From: Solirubrobacterales bacterium
GTDB lineage: Bacteria; Actinomycetota; Thermoleophilia; Solirubrobacterales; Solirubrobacteraceae
Direction: 5' to 3'
Assembly: GCA_003132505.1 (NCBI GenBank)
Contig: PKXY01000025.1
Span: 136-64,135, forward strand
Length of the DNA: 64,000 nt
Part shown: positions 7,961-30,807 of the stretch, in pieces
Layout of the letters: each line of letters begins with the position of its first letter
How positions within the stretch are numbered: position 1 is the stretch's first letter
The notes under the pieces: generated by a model
What the model saw: the letters and a program-made list of their open reading frames with translations, nothing else
Databases searched by the model: none
Told to the model about the DNA's origin: nothing
Program-made: the position numbers and the translations under genes

Positions 7961-10111
7961 GTGGCTGCGATCGCTCAGGTCGAGCCGCTCACGAGCGCGC
8001 GAGCGCTCAGTGGGCCGTTCGACTACGCACTTCCCGAAGACCTCCGCGCGAGCGTGCGGATCGGCTCGCTGCTCGTCGTGCCCTTCGGGCGCCAGGAGCT
8101 GCTGGGCGTGGTCGTCGGCCTTGCCGAGCAGAGTGAGCTGGGAGCCGAGCGGTTGCGCGCGCCACGCAGCACGGTTGATGGCGACGTGCCGCGCGATCTC
8201 GTCGAGCTGGCGGGCTGGATCGCCTCGGAATACTGCTCGACGCCGGCGCGGGCGCTTTCCCTCGTGCTGCCGCCCGCAGCCCGCAAGGGCAACCGGGAGC
8301 TCACACGTCTGGTCGCGACGCTCACGGCTGCTGGAGCTGCCGCGCTCGGCGGTGGCGCTCGGCTGACGCCGCGGCAGCGCACGTTGCTCGCGCGCTTGGC
8401 CCAGGCGGGGCCGGTAGCGGCCAGCGCGCTCCAGGTGGACCACGGAACGCTCCGGCGACTTGAGGCGCGCGGACTTATCGCGTTGAGCTCGGAGTCCGTG
8501 CGACGTGCGCCGGAGCACGTTTCCGTCGGCGCAACGCGGGAGGCGGCGGTCACGCTGAGCGCGAGCCAGCAGGCAGCCGTCGCTGAAGCTCGCGCGGCGA
8601 TCGCTGCGCGCGCGCCCGCGTCTTTCCTGTTGTTCGGCGTGACGGGCTCCGGCAAGACGGAGGTCTACCTGCAGGCCGCCGCGAGCGCGCTCGCACACCG
8701 GCGCGGCGTGATCGTGCTCGTGCCCGAGATCGGCCTGACGCCGCAGACCGTGTCGCGCTTCGTCGAGCGCTTCGGCGACACCGTTGCGGTCCTGCACTCC
8801 CGCCTGTCGGCCGGCGAGCGCCACGACGAGTGGCAGCGCTTGCGCCGCGGCGAGGCGCGGATCTGCGTCGGCCCACGCTCCGCGGTTTTCGCGCCGATCG
8901 CCAACCTCGGGCTGATCGTCGTCGACGAGGAGCACGACTCCTCCTACAAGCATGAGGGGGATCCCCGCTACGACGCGCGTCACGTCGCCGCTCACCGGGC
9001 TGAGATCGCGGGCGCGCTGCTACTGGCGGGCAGCGCGACGCCTCGACCCGAGAGCTTCGCCACGCTGCGTCGACTCGAGTTGCCGGCGCGAGCCGACGGT
9101 GGCCGCCTGCCGAGCGTCGAGATCGTCGACATGCGCGCCGCCCGCGGGGCGCTGCACGAGCGGACCGCCGAGGCGCTCGGTGAGCTGCGCCGCTCCGGCG
9201 GCAAGGGGATCGTCCTGCTCAATCGCCGCGGCTGGTCGAACTTCCTCTCCTGCCGGCAGTGCGGCAAGGTCTGGGGCTGCCCCGAGTGCGATGTCGCCCT
9301 GGTGCTCCATCAGGCGGAGCACGCGATCGCCTGCCACCACTGCGGCCATCGCGAACGAGTGCCCGAACGCTGCGAGGACTGCGGCTCCGCGGCGCTCGCA
9401 CGCCACGGCCTCGGCACCGAGCGGCTCGAGCATGAGCTGACGCGCGCGCTCGGCGGTGCCGATTTCCCGCTGTTTCGCCTCGACGCCGACGTCGCGACGT
9501 TGAAGGGCCGCGCCGCGGCCGTCCTCGCGCGCTTCGATCAGGCCGAGGCAGGCGTCCTCATCGGGACGCAGATGGTCGCCAAGGGACACGATTTCGAGGG
9601 TGTCTCACTCGGCGTCGTGCTCGACGCCGACGCGACGCTTCGTTTCCCCGACTTTCGCGCCGAGGAGCGGACGTTCGCGCTGCTCGCGCAGCTCGCCGGG
9701 CGCACCGGACGTGGTCGCGGCGATGGGCGCGTGCTCGTTCAGACGCTGGCGGGCGATGCGCGCGCGATCGTCTACGCCGCGCGGCACGACAGTGCCGGCT
9801 TCCTGACCGGCGAGCTCGAGCGTCGCCGCGCACTCGGCTACCCGCCCTACGGCGAGCTGATCCGGATCGTCTGCTCGGCGCAGGCGGCGGGGAGCGCCAT
9901 GCGCGCAGCCTGCGAGTTGCGTCAGCGCTTGGTGATCGACACCGCCCAGATCCTCGGTCCGGCGCCGCTATTCCGTCTGCGCGGTCGAGATCGTGCGCAG
10001 CTCCTGATCAAAGCGAGCGACCGAGCCGCTGCCGTCGCAGCCGTCGGAGCAGCCGTCGCTTCGCCGCTCGGTCGAGACGTTGCGGTGAGCGTCGACGTCG
10101 ATCCGCAGTGA
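7961..10111 (+). CDS. priA: Primosomal replication-restart helicase PriA
   Basis: Superfamily 2 helicase that reloads the replisome at stalled forks. 716 residues. The N-terminal DNA-binding part is followed by Walker A GVTGSGKTEVYLQ (about residue 226), the DEEH box in VDEEHDSSYK (about 320), then the PriA zinc-binding insertion with paired cysteines CRQC, CPEC, CHHC and CEDC (about residues 430-475), all eight present. C-terminal helicase motifs include GTQMVAKGHDFEGV and LAGRTGRGRGDG. GTG start. Followed by def, the usual order in many bacteria. Confidence 0.95.
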   Translation: MAAIAQVEPLTSARALSGPFDYALPEDLRASVRIGSLLVVPFGRQELLGVVVGLAEQSELGAERLRAPRSTVDGDVPRDLVELAGWIASEYCSTPARALSLVLPPAARKGNRELTRLVATLTAAGAAALGGGARLTPRQRTLLARLAQAGPVAASALQVDHGTLRRLEARGLIALSSESVRRAPEHVSVGATREAAVTLSASQQAAVAEARAAIAARAPASFLLFGVTGSGKTEVYLQAAASALAHRRGVIVLVPEIGLTPQTVSRFVERFGDTVAVLHSRLSAGERHDEWQRLRRGEARICVGPRSAVFAPIANLGLIVVDEEHDSSYKHEGDPRYDARHVAAHRAEIAGALLLAGSATPRPESFATLRRLELPARADGGRLPSVEIVDMRAARGALHERTAEALGELRRSGGKGIVLLNRRGWSNFLSCRQCGKVWGCPECDVALVLHQAEHAIACHHCGHRERVPERCEDCGSAALARHGLGTERLEHELTRALGGADFPLFRLDADVATLKGRAAAVLARFDQAEAGVLIGTQMVAKGHDFEGVSLGVVLDADATLRFPDFRAEERTFALLAQLAGRTGRGRGDGRVLVQTLAGDARAIVYAARHDSAGFLTGELERRRALGYPPYGELIRIVCSAQAAGSAMRAACELRQRLVIDTAQILGPAPLFRLRGRDRAQLLIKASDRAAAVAAVGAAVASPLGRDVAVSVDVDPQ

Positions 10112-25881: not shown

Positions 25882-27420
25882 TCAGGAACGCCGATCGAGC
25901 GGGACCACTTCGATGCGGGCATCGGCCACATCGGCGGGATACTCGGTGACGTATGCGTTCGTGCCGTCGAGGGCGATCGTTCCGAGCGTGATCTTCCCGC
26001 CGGGCCCGGCGGCGCGGTTCGGGCAGTGGCTCGCCGAGTCCCAGTTGCGCTGGTAGCCAGGCTGGTAACCCGGGTCGCGCCGGACCGTTGACGGGAGGCC
26101 CAGTAGAAGCCGGCTTCGCGCACCGCGGGTCGCCGGGCCGACCAGCAGCTTCTGCTCGCAGCGGCCGACCTTCTCGTAAAGCAGCCGGCGGCCCGAGAGC
26201 ACCGGGTTTTGGAGCGAGTAGTTGGCGTGCGTTGCGTGAAGCTTGGTCCGCGTCCCGGTCGCCAGGTCGACCTCAATGATCGCGCTGGAGCGGGCGCTGC
26301 TCGCACTGAAGACCAGGTCGGAGCCGTGGATCGCGGGGCGTCCGATCTCTCCCGCGAGCGGCGCCGTACTGATCGGTGTGCTTGTCGTCGGGTCGGCTAG
26401 CGAGACCGCGACCAGCTCTGCCCCGCCGCCGACCGGCAGAGCGCTGATCACCAGCCAGCTGGCGGAAACGGCGAGCGCGCTCAGCGTCGCGCGGGCTGGC
26501 AGCGGAACCGTGGCTTCGGTCGCGAGTGTCGTCGCGTTTGCAACCACGATGTCGGCCCCCTGCTCCCAGGCAACGTTCGCATTTCCGAGCGCGGGAAGAT
26601 CGCCCGGTAGCGGTGACTCGGCGCCGGTCGCGCGCTGCAGGACACCGCCGCCGCCGATGCTCTGCCAGGCGACCAGTCCGCCGGCGGCGGAGGGGTCGGT
26701 CGCGGAGCTGGCGAGCGTCGTCAGCTTTGGGCCGAGGCTGTTGCCGAGCGCAGTCGCGGCGGCGAGCGCAACAACGCAAAGGGTGAGCCCGAGCGCGCCG
26801 ACGCGGCGCAAGCCGAGCCACAGGCGCGGGTCGACCGAGATACGGTCGAGGCGCCGCTGCCCATCCTCGCTGCCCAGTTGCGGCGTCAGACAGGCGATCG
26901 GTATGGCGCGACCGACGCCGAACGCGGCGCCGACGATGATGCCAAGGCTCACGCTGTCGCCGGCGACACTGATAGCCGCGAGCGCCCAGACGGCGAAGGC
27001 GAGCACGAAGGTCGTGAAACCGAGTCCGAGCAGGACGCCGTAGAGCCCGCAGGCGAGCGGCAGAGGCATGATCCAGCGCCAGCGCTCCGGGACCTGGCGG
27101 CGGATCTGCGGCGCGATCCGCAGACCGCGCCAGTCGGCGACCGCGGCCGCCGAAGCGATGACGCCGGCGAGTACGTCCCGAAGCTGCCCGTCGCCGCCGA
27201 GAAGCTCGCCGAGCAGCGCGAGGCCACCGAACGTGACGACGCCGCCGAGGACCGCTCCGATCGTGAACGTCGCGACTGCAAGCAACATCATCGAGCGACG
27301 GGCGTCGCCCAGCGCGCTGCCGATCGTGTCCAGCATCGAAAGGCCGCACGGCGACCATGCGCCAGCGATGCCTGCGACGACTGCGGTCAGTCCCGCGCTC
27401 ACAGCGAGCATGCTCAGCAC
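25882..27420 (-). CDS. CcdA/DsbD-like thiol-electron membrane protein fused to a propeller-like domain
   Basis: 512 residues. Residues 1-230 are polytopic membrane sequence opening with VAGIAGAWSPCGLSMLDTIG; C25 in the first helix and C124 (PLPLACGLYGVLLG) sit like the redox pair of CcdA/DsbD transmembrane domains. Residues ~245-505 are soluble, with repeated short strands such as GGLVAWQSIGGGGVL, NVAWEQGADIVVAN and DLVFSASSARSSAIIEVDL, suggestive of TolB/propeller blades; C421 and C466 may form a disulfide. The last helix (207-226) should place this domain outside. GTG 27420 overlaps the MauA-like stop by 7 bp; ATG 27411 is an alternative. Probably carries electrons to the MauED-type thioredoxin domain (inference). 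Confidence 0.75.
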   Translation of the reverse strand: MLSMLAVSAGLTAVVAGIAGAWSPCGLSMLDTIGSALGDARRSMMLLAVATFTIGAVLGGVVTFGGLALLGELLGGDGQLRDVLAGVIASAAAVADWRGLRIAPQIRRQVPERWRWIMPLPLACGLYGVLLGLGFTTFVLAFAVWALAAISVAGDSVSLGIIVGAAFGVGRAIPIACLTPQLGSEDGQRRLDRISVDPRLWLGLRRVGALGLTLCVVALAAATALGNSLGPKLTTLASSATDPSAAGGLVAWQSIGGGGVLQRATGAESPLPGDLPALGNANVAWEQGADIVVANATTLATEATVPLPARATLSALAVSASWLVISALPVGGGAELVAVSLADPTTSTPISTAPLAGEIGRPAIHGSDLVFSASSARSSAIIEVDLATGTRTKLHATHANYSLQNPVLSGRRLLYEKVGRCEQKLLVGPATRGARSRLLLGLPSTVRRDPGYQPGYQRNWDSASHCPNRAAGPGGKITLGTIALDGTNAYVTEYPADVADARIEVVPLDRRS

Positions 27421-28019
27421 GGCACGCTCGTGTCGTAATAGGTGCAGCAGAAGACATGCCGGCCGGCGTAGCAGTATCCGGTGAGGGCCTGGTCGCCGTT
27501 GATGCGAATGTTGGTCTCACCGCAGCAATCGCGGATCCGCCGGACGTGCCCGCCGCAGCAGCGATACCACGAGCCGTCGAGGCTCAGATCGAGGCCGTGG
27601 TCCCGCCCGGCTGTCTGGCAGACCCTTGTCCGCGGCGCGGGCGTGACCGGCGTCCCATCGGGGTTCAGCAACAGTTCGCCCTTCGCGTTGATCGGCTGAT
27701 CTCGCGAGTTGACCGGACGGCCGAGGTCATCGACCGGCACGCCGTCGCTCGCTCGCACGGGGTAACCGTTGCGATCGATGCGTGGGAGCCCGGTCGGGGC
27801 GGGACAGTTGCCGGTGGTCCACGTGTGGCCGCAGAAGTTTGTGTAGGGCTGCGCGTCGGCCTCGGATGGCAGCACGAACTGCGCGACGGTCTTAGCTCCA
27901 GCAAGCGCGATCACGGCGCCGCCGAGCCTCTCGAGAAAGCCACGCCGGCCACTTCGGCGTAGAACCTCGTCGCCGAGTGATTGCTCAGGCAGCAACAGCG
28001 AGGCCCGGCTGACGAGCAC
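27414..28019 (-). CDS. MauA-like (methylamine dehydrogenase small-subunit-like) Tat-exported cysteine-rich protein
   Basis: 201 residues. A long leader with SGRRGFLERLGG (RR at 25-26) followed by a hydrophobic stretch is a Tat signal, as in MauA proteins. The mature part has 11 cysteines (63, 72, 134, 154, 155, 165, 166, 183, 191, 192, 201). SWYRCCGG (150-157), RIRDCCG (161-167) and GYCYAG (181-186) parallel the SWVASC, YRDCCG and IIWCFGA segments of Paracoccus MauA from memory. W151 matches the first TTQ tryptophan; the second aligns with Y182. The extra segment ~75-130 (repeated DGxPV-like turns) is not in MauA. GTG start overlaps the MauED gene by 35 bp. Enzymatic function not shown. Confidence 0.7.
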   Translation of the reverse strand: MLVSRASLLLPEQSLGDEVLRRSGRRGFLERLGGAVIALAGAKTVAQFVLPSEADAQPYTNFCGHTWTTGNCPAPTGLPRIDRNGYPVRASDGVPVDDLGRPVNSRDQPINAKGELLLNPDGTPVTPAPRTRVCQTAGRDHGLDLSLDGSWYRCCGGHVRRIRDCCGETNIRINGDQALTGYCYAGRHVFCCTYYDTSVPC

Positions 28020-28875
28020 GGGCTGTGGCGACGATGCTCTCGAGCTGGGTTAGGTTGTTGAACGTGCCCTTCGCGAGCGCGACGCCTGAGCCGTCGAGCG
28101 CAACGGCGTAGGGGCTCCCCGGGATATTGGCTGCCGACCAGGTTGCTGCGCCGGCTACCTCATCGAAAACGCGTACGGCGAGGAGCGGGTCCGCCGCGAC
28201 GTAGGTGATCGCCGGCTCCACCCGCCGGCACACCGGGCACCCCTCGGAGCTGAAGATCGCGAGCGCGAGCAACTCGCCTCGACCGACAGGGAGTGCTGCC
28301 GCCCAAGCCTGGTGGTCGCCGACCGAGGGACCCTCCTCGGGGATCTCGAGCGCTCCCTGTCCGGCGATCGAGAGTCGCAGCACGCCGACCTCGCGTGCGA
28401 GCGCGAGCACGACAGCGGCTAGCCCAACCACGGCGATCAGCGCCGCGACGAGACCGACCGTCAGCCACCGGTCATAGCTCGACGGCGCTGCCGGCAGCAC
28501 GCCACTGGCAGCCACGGCGGCGAGCGCGGCGAGCGCGATCGAGCGCAGCGGTGAAGTCCAGCGGAGCCGTGAGCGGCTCCCGAAGCACGCGCAGGGCAGG
28601 CCTTCACGGCCAGCGAGCAGGGCCCCGAGGGTCGCAAGCGCGAACACGGCAAAGAGCGCGACGGTCGCCCAAGCCGCTGCGCTCAGCCCCGCGACGAGGC
28701 CAACGGCGAGGCCGACCTCGACGACGGCCACCACGCCCAGTACGGCATAGCGGGTTACACCCCCGGCGATCCCGTAGACAGCGAGTGCCATCGCGCTACG
28801 AGTTGGATCGCGAACCTTCAGCCCTGCCGCCAGCACGAGCAAAGCGGCTAGTCCCAACTCCAGCGCCGTAGTCAC
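27985..28875 (-). CDS. MauE-MauD fusion: DoxX-like membrane domain plus thioredoxin-like domain
   Basis: 296 residues. Residues ~1-130 form four membrane helices of the MauE/DoxX type with the conserved CACFG cysteines (95-99). A further helix (about 138-160) leads into VLALAREVGVLRLSIAGQGA, which strongly resembles the N-terminal anchor of MauD. The thioredoxin-like domain has the active site SSEGCPVCRRVEP (C213, C216) and a cis-proline GSPYA (P255). MauE and MauD are normally separate and help fold the disulfide-rich MauA, so this fusion beside a MauA-like gene makes functional sense. GTG start; divergent from rpmB. Confidence 0.78.
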   Translation of the reverse strand: MTTALELGLAALLVLAAGLKVRDPTRSAMALAVYGIAGGVTRYAVLGVVAVVEVGLAVGLVAGLSAAAWATVALFAVFALATLGALLAGREGLPCACFGSRSRLRWTSPLRSIALAALAAVAASGVLPAAPSSYDRWLTVGLVAALIAVVGLAAVVLALAREVGVLRLSIAGQGALEIPEEGPSVGDHQAWAAALPVGRGELLALAIFSSEGCPVCRRVEPAITYVAADPLLAVRVFDEVAGAATWSAANIPGSPYAVALDGSGVALAKGTFNNLTQLESIVATARARQPGLAVAA

Positions 28876-28934
28876 TGTAGTAGGAGCCGGCCAGTTCGAC
28901 GAGAGGTGGCCCCCATACAGCGCGCCAACCTATC

Positions 28935-28975
28935 AGTGATCACTCGACGACACCGCCCATTACACTGCCGAGCAG
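28935..28975 (+). promoter_or_regulatory. Putative rpmB promoter with 10-bp palindrome over the -35 region
   Basis: TACACT at 28961-28966 fits a -10 box, 9 nt before the rpmB ATG. The perfect palindrome AGTGATCACT at 28935-28944 sits where the -35 element should be. It lies in the short divergent spacer shared with the Mau-like genes, so a bound regulator could affect both. Confidence 0.35.
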
Positions 28976-29167
28976 ATGGCAAAGGTCTGTCACAGCTGCG
29001 GCAAGGGTCCCGCGTTCGGCAACAATCGCAGCCACTCGATGGTCGCCACCAGGCGGCGCTTCGATCCCAACCTGCAGAAGGTGAGGATCATCGAAGCCGG
29101 CGCGCCGCGCCGCGTCTACGTGTGCACGCGCTGCCTCAAGGCGGGAAAGGTAACGAAGGCGCTCTAG
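28976..29167 (+). CDS. rpmB: 50S ribosomal protein L28
   Basis: 63 residues. [21 protein letters not shown] followed by [12 protein letters not shown] is the standard L28 signature. Two CxxC pairs (CHSC near the start and CTRC near the end) make it the zinc-binding form. Lies upstream of the FakA-like and recG genes, a conserved order. Confidence 0.95.
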
Positions 29168-29181
29168 CGGGTGCGCGGGTC

Positions 29182-30807
29182 GTGACAGACCCCAACATCG
29201 TCCGCTTTCGCACGATTGTCGCTGGTGCGCTGGCGCACCTCGAGTCGCGCCGCGAGGAGGTCAACGACCTCAACGTGTTCCCCGTCGCCGACGGCGACAC
29301 CGGCGACAACATGGTGCTCACGCTCCGCGCGGTCGTCGACGAGCTCGACCGCTTCGGCGCTGACGGGGATCGCACGATCGACGAGATCGGCCGCGACGAG
29401 ATCGTCGACGCGGTCGCGCGTGCCGCGCTGCTCGGGGCGCGCGGCAACAGTGGCGTGATCCTCTCGCAGCTGATCCGCGGCGCCGCCGAGGAGCTCGTCA
29501 GCCGTCCCGGCGAGCTGATCGACGCGACGCTGATCGGCGCTGCGCTCGCCCGCGCCGCCGACCGCGCCTATGCCTCGGTGCGCGACCCGGCGGAGGGAAC
29601 GATCCTCACGGTCGTTCGCGAGATGGCGCATCGTGTCGCGGTCGAGCTGGCGCACATGCCGGATCCGCGTCTTGCGCCGGACGCGCCGTCCGAGCTGCAG
29701 GACGACACCATCGCTGTGCTGCTCGAGCGCGCGGTCGCGGCGGGCGAGGCCTCGGTGATGCGCACCCCCGATCTGCTCGCCGTGCTCCGTGAGGCCGGGG
29801 TCGTCGACGCCGGCGGCTACGCGCTGACCGTGATCTTCGCCGGCATCGTCGCGGCGCTGCGCGGCGACGAGCCGCCACCGCTCGAGCACCACGCGCCTGC
29901 TCGCATCACGCACCCGCAACACGCCTCATCGACCTACCGCTACTGCACCAACTTCGCCGTCATCGGCGAGGGCCTCGAGCCGAGCCTCTTCGTCGGCGCG
30001 CTCGAGCAGCTCGGCGACTCGGTCTTCGTCGTCGGCGACGCGGCCACGCTCAAGATCCACCTCCACACAGACCAGCCCGAGAGCGCGACGGCGGTGTTCG
30101 CCGACGCCGGGGAGGTGTCCCACCTCGACGTCGCCGACATGCATGACCAGCTCGCCCGTCGCGCAGCGGCGAGACCGGCACACTGCGGCGTCCTCGCGGT
30201 GGTCGCGAGTTCGGGCATCGGCGCGCTATTCGAGAGCCTCGGCGCGAACGTCCTCGACGGCGGGCCGACGCTCAACCCGTCCACCTACGAGCTGCTCGCC
30301 GGGATTCACGCGGTTCCCGCCGAGCAGGTGGTCGTCCTGGCCAACAACCCGAGCGTCATTCTCGCCGCCGAGCACGCCGCCGAGCTCTCGGACAAGAACG
30401 TCGTGGTCGTACCGTCCCGCTCGCAGCAGACGGCGCTCGCCGCGCTCGTCGCCTACTCGCCGGAGCGAAGCGCTGCCGAGAACGCCGCGGCGATCGAGGC
30501 GGCCCTCGAGCGCGTCCGCAGCGGCTCGGTCGCTCCGGCCGCCCGCGATGACGCTGAGGGCCGCTTCCGTGCCGGCGACGCCGTCGGCTTCGTCGATGAG
30601 ACCCTCGTCGCCTGGGGAGCGCCCGAGGCGACCCTGACGCAGGTTCTCGTGACCCTCGGTGACGGCAGCGAGCTGATTACCTGCATCGCCGGCGAGGACG
30701 CGCCGCTCGCCAGCGAGCGCGTCGCCACGCTGGTCCCCAACGAGGTCGAGCTCGAGCACCGCGACGGCGGCCAGCCCGGGCACTGGTGGTTGCTTAGTGC
30801 CGAATGA
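29182..30807 (+). CDS. fakA: DAK2-domain protein, fatty acid kinase FakA-like
   Basis: FakA phosphorylates FakB-bound fatty acids for phospholipid synthesis. N-terminal DAK2 nucleotide domain: NVFPVADGDTGDNMVLTL and LLGARGNSGVILSQLIRGAAEEL with conserved Asp/Asn residues. The C-terminal half (YRYCTNFAVIGEGLEPSLF; VVLANNPSVILAAEHAAEL) matches the FakA/YloV layout. GTG 29182 gives VTDPNIVRFRTIV and 541 residues, typical length; the in-frame extension to 28906 would cover rpmB. Next to recG, as in many Gram-positives. FakB was not seen here. Confidence 0.88.
   Translation: MTDPNIVRFRTIVAGALAHLESRREEVNDLNVFPVADGDTGDNMVLTLRAVVDELDRFGADGDRTIDEIGRDEIVDAVARAALLGARGNSGVILSQLIRGAAEELVSRPGELIDATLIGAALARAADRAYASVRDPAEGTILTVVREMAHRVAVELAHMPDPRLAPDAPSELQDDTIAVLLERAVAAGEASVMRTPDLLAVLREAGVVDAGGYALTVIFAGIVAALRGDEPPPLEHHAPARITHPQHASSTYRYCTNFAVIGEGLEPSLFVGALEQLGDSVFVVGDAATLKIHLHTDQPESATAVFADAGEVSHLDVADMHDQLARRAAARPAHCGVLAVVASSGIGALFESLGANVLDGGPTLNPSTYELLAGIHAVPAEQVVVLANNPSVILAAEHAAELSDKNVVVVPSRSQQTALAALVAYSPERSAAENAAAIEAALERVRSGSVAPAARDDAEGRFRAGDAVGFVDETLVAWGAPEATLTQVLVTLGDGSELITCIAGEDAPLASERVATLVPNEVELEHRDGGQPGHWWLLSAE

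Follow-up and report, generated by a model that had tools for sequence, protein, structure and literature searches.

A Mau-type thiol-redox locus of Thermoleophilia, its small secreted MauA-like protein, and a predicted selenocysteine form of MauF

Introduction

In the methylamine dehydrogenase (MADH) system, the disulfide-rich light chain MauA depends on MauD and MauE, and MauF is to our knowledge a part of the same gene set for which no role has been established; among the closest known systems is that of Paracoccus denitrificans, whose mau operon (mauFBEDACJGMN type) has the order mauF-B-E-D-A. A second point of reference is provided by the CcdA/DsbD membrane conduits, in which two intramembrane cysteines are needed. 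Here we describe a locus of three genes in a 64,000-nucleotide stretch of contig PKXY01000025.1 (GenBank assembly GCA_003132505.1, positions 136 to 64,135 of the forward strand), referred to below as the window, from a Solirubrobacterales bacterium of the class Thermoleophilia, and we consider it likely that this locus specifies a MauD-MauE-MauF thiol-oxidation module dedicated to the folding of one small secreted protein of MauA-like fold, with MauF representing a new selenoprotein family.

The locus resembles the P. denitrificans mau operon in that homologues of MauF, MauE and MauD stand beside a small disulfide-rich protein which is exported by the twin-arginine translocation (Tat) route and has a MauA-like predicted fold, and it differs from that operon in the absence of MauB, MauG and amicyanin, in the fusion of its genes, and in the apparent selenoprotein nature of MauF in many of its relatives. 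The small protein has a similar Tat leader and a DCC motif in common with the MauA/AauA light chains (PF02975), and its predicted fold resembles theirs, whereas its mature part has no significant profile match to them, possesses a single invariant Trp and, in most members of the class, contains a repeat-like linker; as compared to MauA of P. denitrificans it fails the PF02975 model, has 10 rather than 12 conserved cysteines, and carries, if the motifs are paired by hand, a Tyr at the place of Trp108. The membrane protein has an SPC motif at its first helix and a periplasmic thioredoxin partner, as do CcdA/DsbD conduits, but it belongs to no Pfam or NCBIfam family, lacks a conserved second cysteine, and displays the MauF-specific motif PQxRRQVP...YGxxLG instead.

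The locus and its conservation

Three overlapping open reading frames (ORFs), which the initial annotation had recognised from the sequence of the window, were found at the following coordinates:

27985-28875, minus strand: gene 1, MauE-MauD fusion of 296 amino acids with a GTG start
27414-28019, minus strand: gene 2, Tat-exported protein of predicted MauA-like fold, 201 amino acids, with 10 conserved cysteines
25882-27420, minus strand: gene 3, MauF-propeller fusion of 512 amino acids

The small protein encoded by gene 2 was detected in 40 of the 299 genomes of the class (38 strong and two weak partial matches), mostly with 46-58% identity, and its neighbour genes are kept beside it in nearly all of these loci. 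Such conserved recurrence, neighbours included, indicates that the locus is not a product of chance, and the three genes are confirmed to be real, overlapping and conserved. Outside the class, another lineage of the phylum, referred to below as the second lineage and comprising families f13 and f19 and one f71 genome, also has the small protein, there without a stretch of approximately 20 residues. In two genomes of one genus (L039 and L041) mauF is located 3.7 kb away.

MauF and its predicted selenocysteine form in relatives

The membrane part of gene 3 had been taken for a CcdA-like protein, an assignment that gives way to MauF.

26836-27420, minus strand: MauF membrane domain, residues 1-195, supported by hhalign
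27346-27348, minus strand: TGC codon of Cys25 in WSPCG, replaced by an in-frame UGA in 40 relatives

The gene 3 family profile matches MauF of P. denitrificans with an hhalign E-value of 2e-20 over 190 columns, which include WSPCG and PQ-R-QVP, while the MauF part alone gives 1.3e-22 and a pairwise comparison 6e-4. No Pfam or NCBIfam match was obtained for gene 3, and no curated model of either collection (NCBIfam release 20) matches MauF itself. The sole invariant cysteine in 47 aligned MauF members is that of WSP[C/U]G, at the end of the first helix, and a CcdA/DsbD identity was rejected on account of this single invariant Cys/Sec position (Sec being selenocysteine) and of the missing Pfam match. 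Among the Pfam families by which the initial annotation had proposed to recognise the three proteins, MauE (PF07291) alone gave a match, and neither CcdA/DsbD nor PF02975 did.

The ORF calls for gene 3 were interrupted at a single recurring site in many relatives, which read GAWSP-stop-GFSM as compared to GAWSPCGLSM in the window, and the protein sequence is kept on both sides of the UGA (AGVSGAWSP before it, GLSMVET after it). Using a scan pattern that accepted only Cys or stop at the WSP[C/U]G position, the codon was established to be TGA in 40, TGC in 15 and TGT in two of 57 distinct MauF sequences, and TAA or TAG in none. The published model of the bacterial selenocysteine insertion sequence (bSECIS), which calls for a loop 16-37 nt from the UGA, a G within the first two positions of the loop and an energy of at most -7.5 (PMC13188914), was passed by 37 of the 40 UGA forms, where shuffling synonymous codons within these proteins led to an expectation of 14, and by two of the 17 Cys forms, with 2.2 expected. 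In the main UGA group 94.5% of the cells of the hairpin are paired in one register, as compared to 41-69% in slid registers, and five of its seven pairs show changes on both sides, a level reached in none of 500 shuffles; Rfam holds no family at this hairpin. SelA was found in 34 of the 40 genomes with a UGA form, including all 16 of those that are at least 95% complete, and the tRNA-Sec has a TCA anticodon. At one locus (L056:1035-10718) a single run comprises tRNA-Sec, selD, a TauE-like gene, selA, selB, mauED, the mauA-like gene and a UGA-form mauF, selA and selB being directly upstream of the operon, selD (recognised by eye) just before these, and tRNA-Sec further upstream.

A true stop at this codon would yield a short peptide, followed by a restart of translation at a Met a few codons on and no selenoprotein at all, and a start codon (MVET...) is indeed often present four codons after the UGA. 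This explanation is nevertheless very hard to reconcile with a protein conserved on both sides of a UGA that aligns exactly with Cys and is the only stop codon used, with a hairpin that covaries and is absent from the Cys forms, and with Sec genes that co-occur with the UGA forms and can adjoin them, and we give it almost no credence. A reassigned genetic code was rejected as no other codon serves more often as an ordinary stop in these loci than UGA (212 of 355 genes), which also terminates the next gene upstream in 19 of 21 cases, and a sequencing error was rejected as the UGA is seen in 40 genomes. MauF thus appears to be a selenoprotein family in many actinobacterial relatives of the window, selenium insertion being predicted from the UGA codon, the bSECIS and the Sec machinery. 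The MauF of the window is itself a Cys form (TGC) and does not qualify as a selenoprotein, nor were SelA, SelB or a tRNA-Sec above the tRNA background detected in its genome; since the window has the Cys form, the selenocysteine form was invisible to the initial annotation.

A tree of the MauF domain, computed quickly and with many weak branches, needs at least four changes between Sec and Cys. The UGA forms of L003, L033 and L034 are nested in a Cys clade, place the hairpin at +20 rather than +32 nt and have Ser after Sec (WSPUSLSM), a combination that points to Sec having been gained separately. The Sec-form MauF of L055, from a genome (G296) of the same order, groups with the other lineage (f13), which suggests horizontal transfer. 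In the distant relative G548 (L128) MauF is likewise a UGA form and has a lipobox-like tail.

The 2026 catalogue of prokaryotic selenoproteins lists 119 families (PMC13188914), mostly of thiol-redox function and with TsoB as one example of its membrane and DsbD-fusion members, to which the MauF of relatives is alike in combining a UGA with a bSECIS. MauF, MauE or any other Mau-type family is absent from that catalogue (PMC13188914), and searches of the open-access literature turned up no relevant report tying MauF or Mau to selenium, although one may have escaped us.

The MauE-MauD fusion and the proposed thiol relay

The reading of gene 1 as a MauE-MauD fusion with a CPVC motif was upheld, and the following features were assigned to it:

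28510-28869, minus strand: MauE membrane domain (PF07291), residues 3-122, from Pfam and hhalign
28585-28593, minus strand: C-x-C motif of MauE, CAC (C95, C97), invariant in 31 aligned fusions, codons checked
28021-28467, minus strand: MauD-type thioredoxin domain, residues 137-285, from hhalign
28228-28239, minus strand: CPVC redox motif (C213/C216), both cysteines invariant in the aligned fusions

PF07291 matches with an E-value of 2.9e-14 and 53.9 bits against a gathering cut-off of 27, and the comparisons with P. denitrificans gave hhalign E-values of 5.6e-16 for MauE and 1.4e-18 for MauD. The thioredoxin part falls short of the cut-off of the MauD equivalog TIGR02661 (39.5 as compared to 188.6 bits) and is called MauD-type in view of its hhalign homology to MauD; the CxxC of a MauD thioredoxin is present as the invariant C213/C216 pair. 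Judged by sequence comparison, the homology of gene 1 to MauE and MauD is beyond doubt.

We propose that MauD (a CxxC thioredoxin), MauE (CxC, membrane) and MauF (a single Cys or Sec, membrane) would constitute a dedicated extracytoplasmic thiol-redox module for a single secreted MauA-fold protein, whose 10 conserved cysteines it would join into disulfides or re-pair. Of the methylamine dehydrogenase system, only the part concerned with maturation would then be present, with another protein as its product and with MauB, MauG and amicyanin lacking. On the simplest account, electrons may pass from the small protein to the CxxC of MauD and from there to the CxC of MauE and the Cys/Sec of MauF, in a thiol oxidation or isomerisation in which the WSP[C/U]G residue would take part in thiol/selenol exchange. 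The single Cys/Sec of MauF argues for a mixed-disulfide (monothiol) step and not for a CcdA-like pair.

The same components could in principle operate in reverse, with MauF sending electrons outward in the manner of CcdA/DsbD and keeping MauD and the small protein reduced, the latter then being a redox or peroxide-handling protein. The SPC motif at the first helix, a weak DsbD match of one Sec form of MauF (E 0.14) and the frequent use of Sec in reductive chemistry are in keeping with such a reducing module, which we nonetheless consider unlikely, as CcdA/DsbD needs two intramembrane cysteines where MauF has one invariant Cys/Sec, and as MauD and MauE serve a disulfide-rich MauA in the MADH system.

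The small exported protein and the absent mau partners

For gene 2 the description as a Tat-exported, cysteine-rich, MauA-like protein is borne out by its leader, its 10 conserved cysteines and its predicted fold, while the sequence models of MauA do not support it.

27942-27947, minus strand: twin-arginine pair of the leader, R25 (conserved in 63 of 63 members) and R26 (60 of 63); TIGR01409 match weak
27567-27569, minus strand: Trp151, invariant (63 of 63), tentatively matched by hand to MauA Trp57
27528-27530, minus strand: Asp164 before Cys165-Cys166, invariant (63 of 63), matched by hand to MauA Asp76
27474-27476, minus strand: Tyr182 before Cys183, invariant (63 of 63), putatively at the place of MauA Trp108

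The predicted structure has a pLDDT (predicted local distance difference test) above 90 for most of residues 70-200, and in a second-look alignment against 998 chains the 18 best matches were all light chains of MADH or aromatic amine dehydrogenase (AADH), with 75-88 residues aligned at Z-scores of 3.5-4.2, which are low in absolute terms; the weight of this result lies in the uniform identity of the top matches, each Z-score being low. A plain Foldseek search with the model gave no significant match, PF02975 matched none of 39 gene 2 members even at an E-value of 10, and a sequence search of the PDB with the protein and its profile returned no relative. Besides the Tat leader, Pfam and NCBIfam offered only an RZ zinc-finger match, which was dismissed as chance. 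The sole part to match MauA by hhalign was the leader (E 3.2e-8). It is to the methylamine and aromatic amine dehydrogenase light chains that the predicted fold of gene 2 comes closest, in a protein that fails the MauA sequence model.

By hand, W57 and C61 of MauA may be paired with W151 and C155 of gene 2, D76-C77-C78 with D164-C165-C166, W108-C109 with Y182-C183, and C121 with C191; local hhalign likewise places the DCC of gene 2 on that of MauA, without significance. The invariance of W151, D164 and Y182 extends to the very divergent L128 member. The repeat-like linker occurs in most members of the class but is missing from the second lineage. At L128 (7215-9894) the MauA-like domain makes up the N-terminus of a 476-amino acid protein, the rest of which resembles, by eye, cell-wall-binding repeats. 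In one genus (g2), L038:8777-10105 and L061:5976-7307 each contain an apparent single ORF of about 442 amino acids that may be a MauE-MauD-MauA fusion.

Models of MauB and MauA found nothing in the 18 genomes with the locus, and nothing in the window's own genome, in searches whose positive controls worked. MauG (PF03150) was found in one of the 18 and not in the window's own genome, where the separate mauB/mauG set whose presence would have altered the picture thus gave no match. If the hand matching is right, the second Trp of tryptophan tryptophylquinone (TTQ) is a Tyr and the known TTQ cannot form; TTQ chemistry in the small protein is unlikely because of this invariant Tyr and because 17 of 18 genomes lack MauG. 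That a new protein-derived cofactor arises from the invariant Trp151 and Tyr182, with the catalytic Asp base retained, without MauG and in dependence on a selenol/thiol MauDEF, is a speculative notion to which we attach a low likelihood; were it true, soil actinobacteria would possess a redox enzyme of a new, quinone-type kind.

The propeller of gene 3

25885-26733, minus strand: six-bladed beta-propeller, residues 230-512, 24 strands in the model

The C-terminal propeller seen by the initial annotation is confidently predicted, in that the gene 3 model (m0e6a89dc3da7) has a mean pLDDT of 89 and consists of a multi-helix membrane part followed by the propeller; its suggested role as a stand-in for MauB was not sustained. 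The best structural matches were the designed Pizza6 (Z 21) and TolB (Z 19-20), neither the MauB heavy-chain model PF06433 nor a profile comparison with MauB, a seven-bladed propeller, gave a match, and MauB was not among the structural matches listed, which proves nothing by itself. The parts of the locus are linked differently across lineages, as MauE-MauD and MauF-propeller in the window and as MauF-MauE in family f19, where the extension of MauF is a MauE domain, and MauF of family f13 has no propeller. The loci L109:8983-10233 and L116:8650-9882 (f19) encode a Sec-form MauF fused to MauE (PF07291 E-values of 2e-22 and 4.5e-21). L046 (G122) and L051 (G007), below position 8740, lack the membrane part of MauF, and there the MauA-like gene is directly followed by the gene of a propeller protein that appears to be exported. 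Since MauF of f13 and f19 lacks the propeller, and the propeller of G122 and G007 stands without a membrane domain, the propeller is an accessory found in this class rather than an obligatory MauB.

These observations bear on the suggestion that the locus is a self-contained enzyme resembling an amine dehydrogenase, with a TTQ-like cofactor on the small protein, a CcdA that feeds the thioredoxin and a propeller that replaces MauB. The MauA-like predicted fold, the invariant Trp151, Asp164 and Tyr182 matched by hand to Trp57, Asp76 and Trp108, the fusion of the propeller in cis, and its persistence after the small gene in L046 and L051 even without the membrane domain would all suit such an enzyme. 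It is rendered improbable by the replacement of the second Trp by Tyr in 63 of 63 members, by the presence of MauG in only one of 18 genomes, by a propeller of six blades without a MauB profile match, and by the second lineage, which retains MauD, MauE, the MauA-like protein and MauF without any propeller.

At the edge of the locus, the ORF call of the neighbouring DAK-type gene (28906-30807 of the window) is over-extended at its 5' end, and the start of this call looks like ribosomal protein L28 read in a shifted frame.

Weighing the proposed module

Several observations weigh against a MauD-MauE-MauF module that folds one MauA-fold client and contains a selenoprotein. The mature small protein gave no significant hhalign match to MauA in any cut, and the fold similarity to MADH and AADH light chains is low in absolute terms (Z 3.5-4.2). 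Five draft genomes with a UGA form (78-94% complete) have no clear Sec gene, and of 15 Cys-form genomes tested nine have SelA and six do not, so that Sec form and machinery are only partly linked; the nine indicate that Cys forms can persist beside Sec machinery. The direction of electron flow, and even the oxidising role, are carried over by analogy from the MADH system. What sequence comparison establishes is the homology of MauD, MauE and MauF, the conservation of the locus, and the agreement of UGA codon, SECIS and Sec machinery; the electron path and what the small protein does are inferred. We hold the proposed module to be probable.

Biological significance

A known maturation module with what appears to be a new product, together with a predicted new member of the selenoproteins, is what is new here. 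MauF would add to the selenoproteome a membrane protein family that the 2026 catalogue does not contain, and ORF finders truncate genes of this kind at the UGA, as was seen with mauF. The MauDEF machinery would not be tied to methylamine dehydrogenase and may serve a broader class of secreted MauA-fold proteins, while MauF would provide a concrete user of selenium for the Sec-using Thermoleophilia and their relatives. The natural exchange of Cys and Sec at one position marks this residue of MauF as its redox centre, by which the role of MauF becomes a directly testable question.

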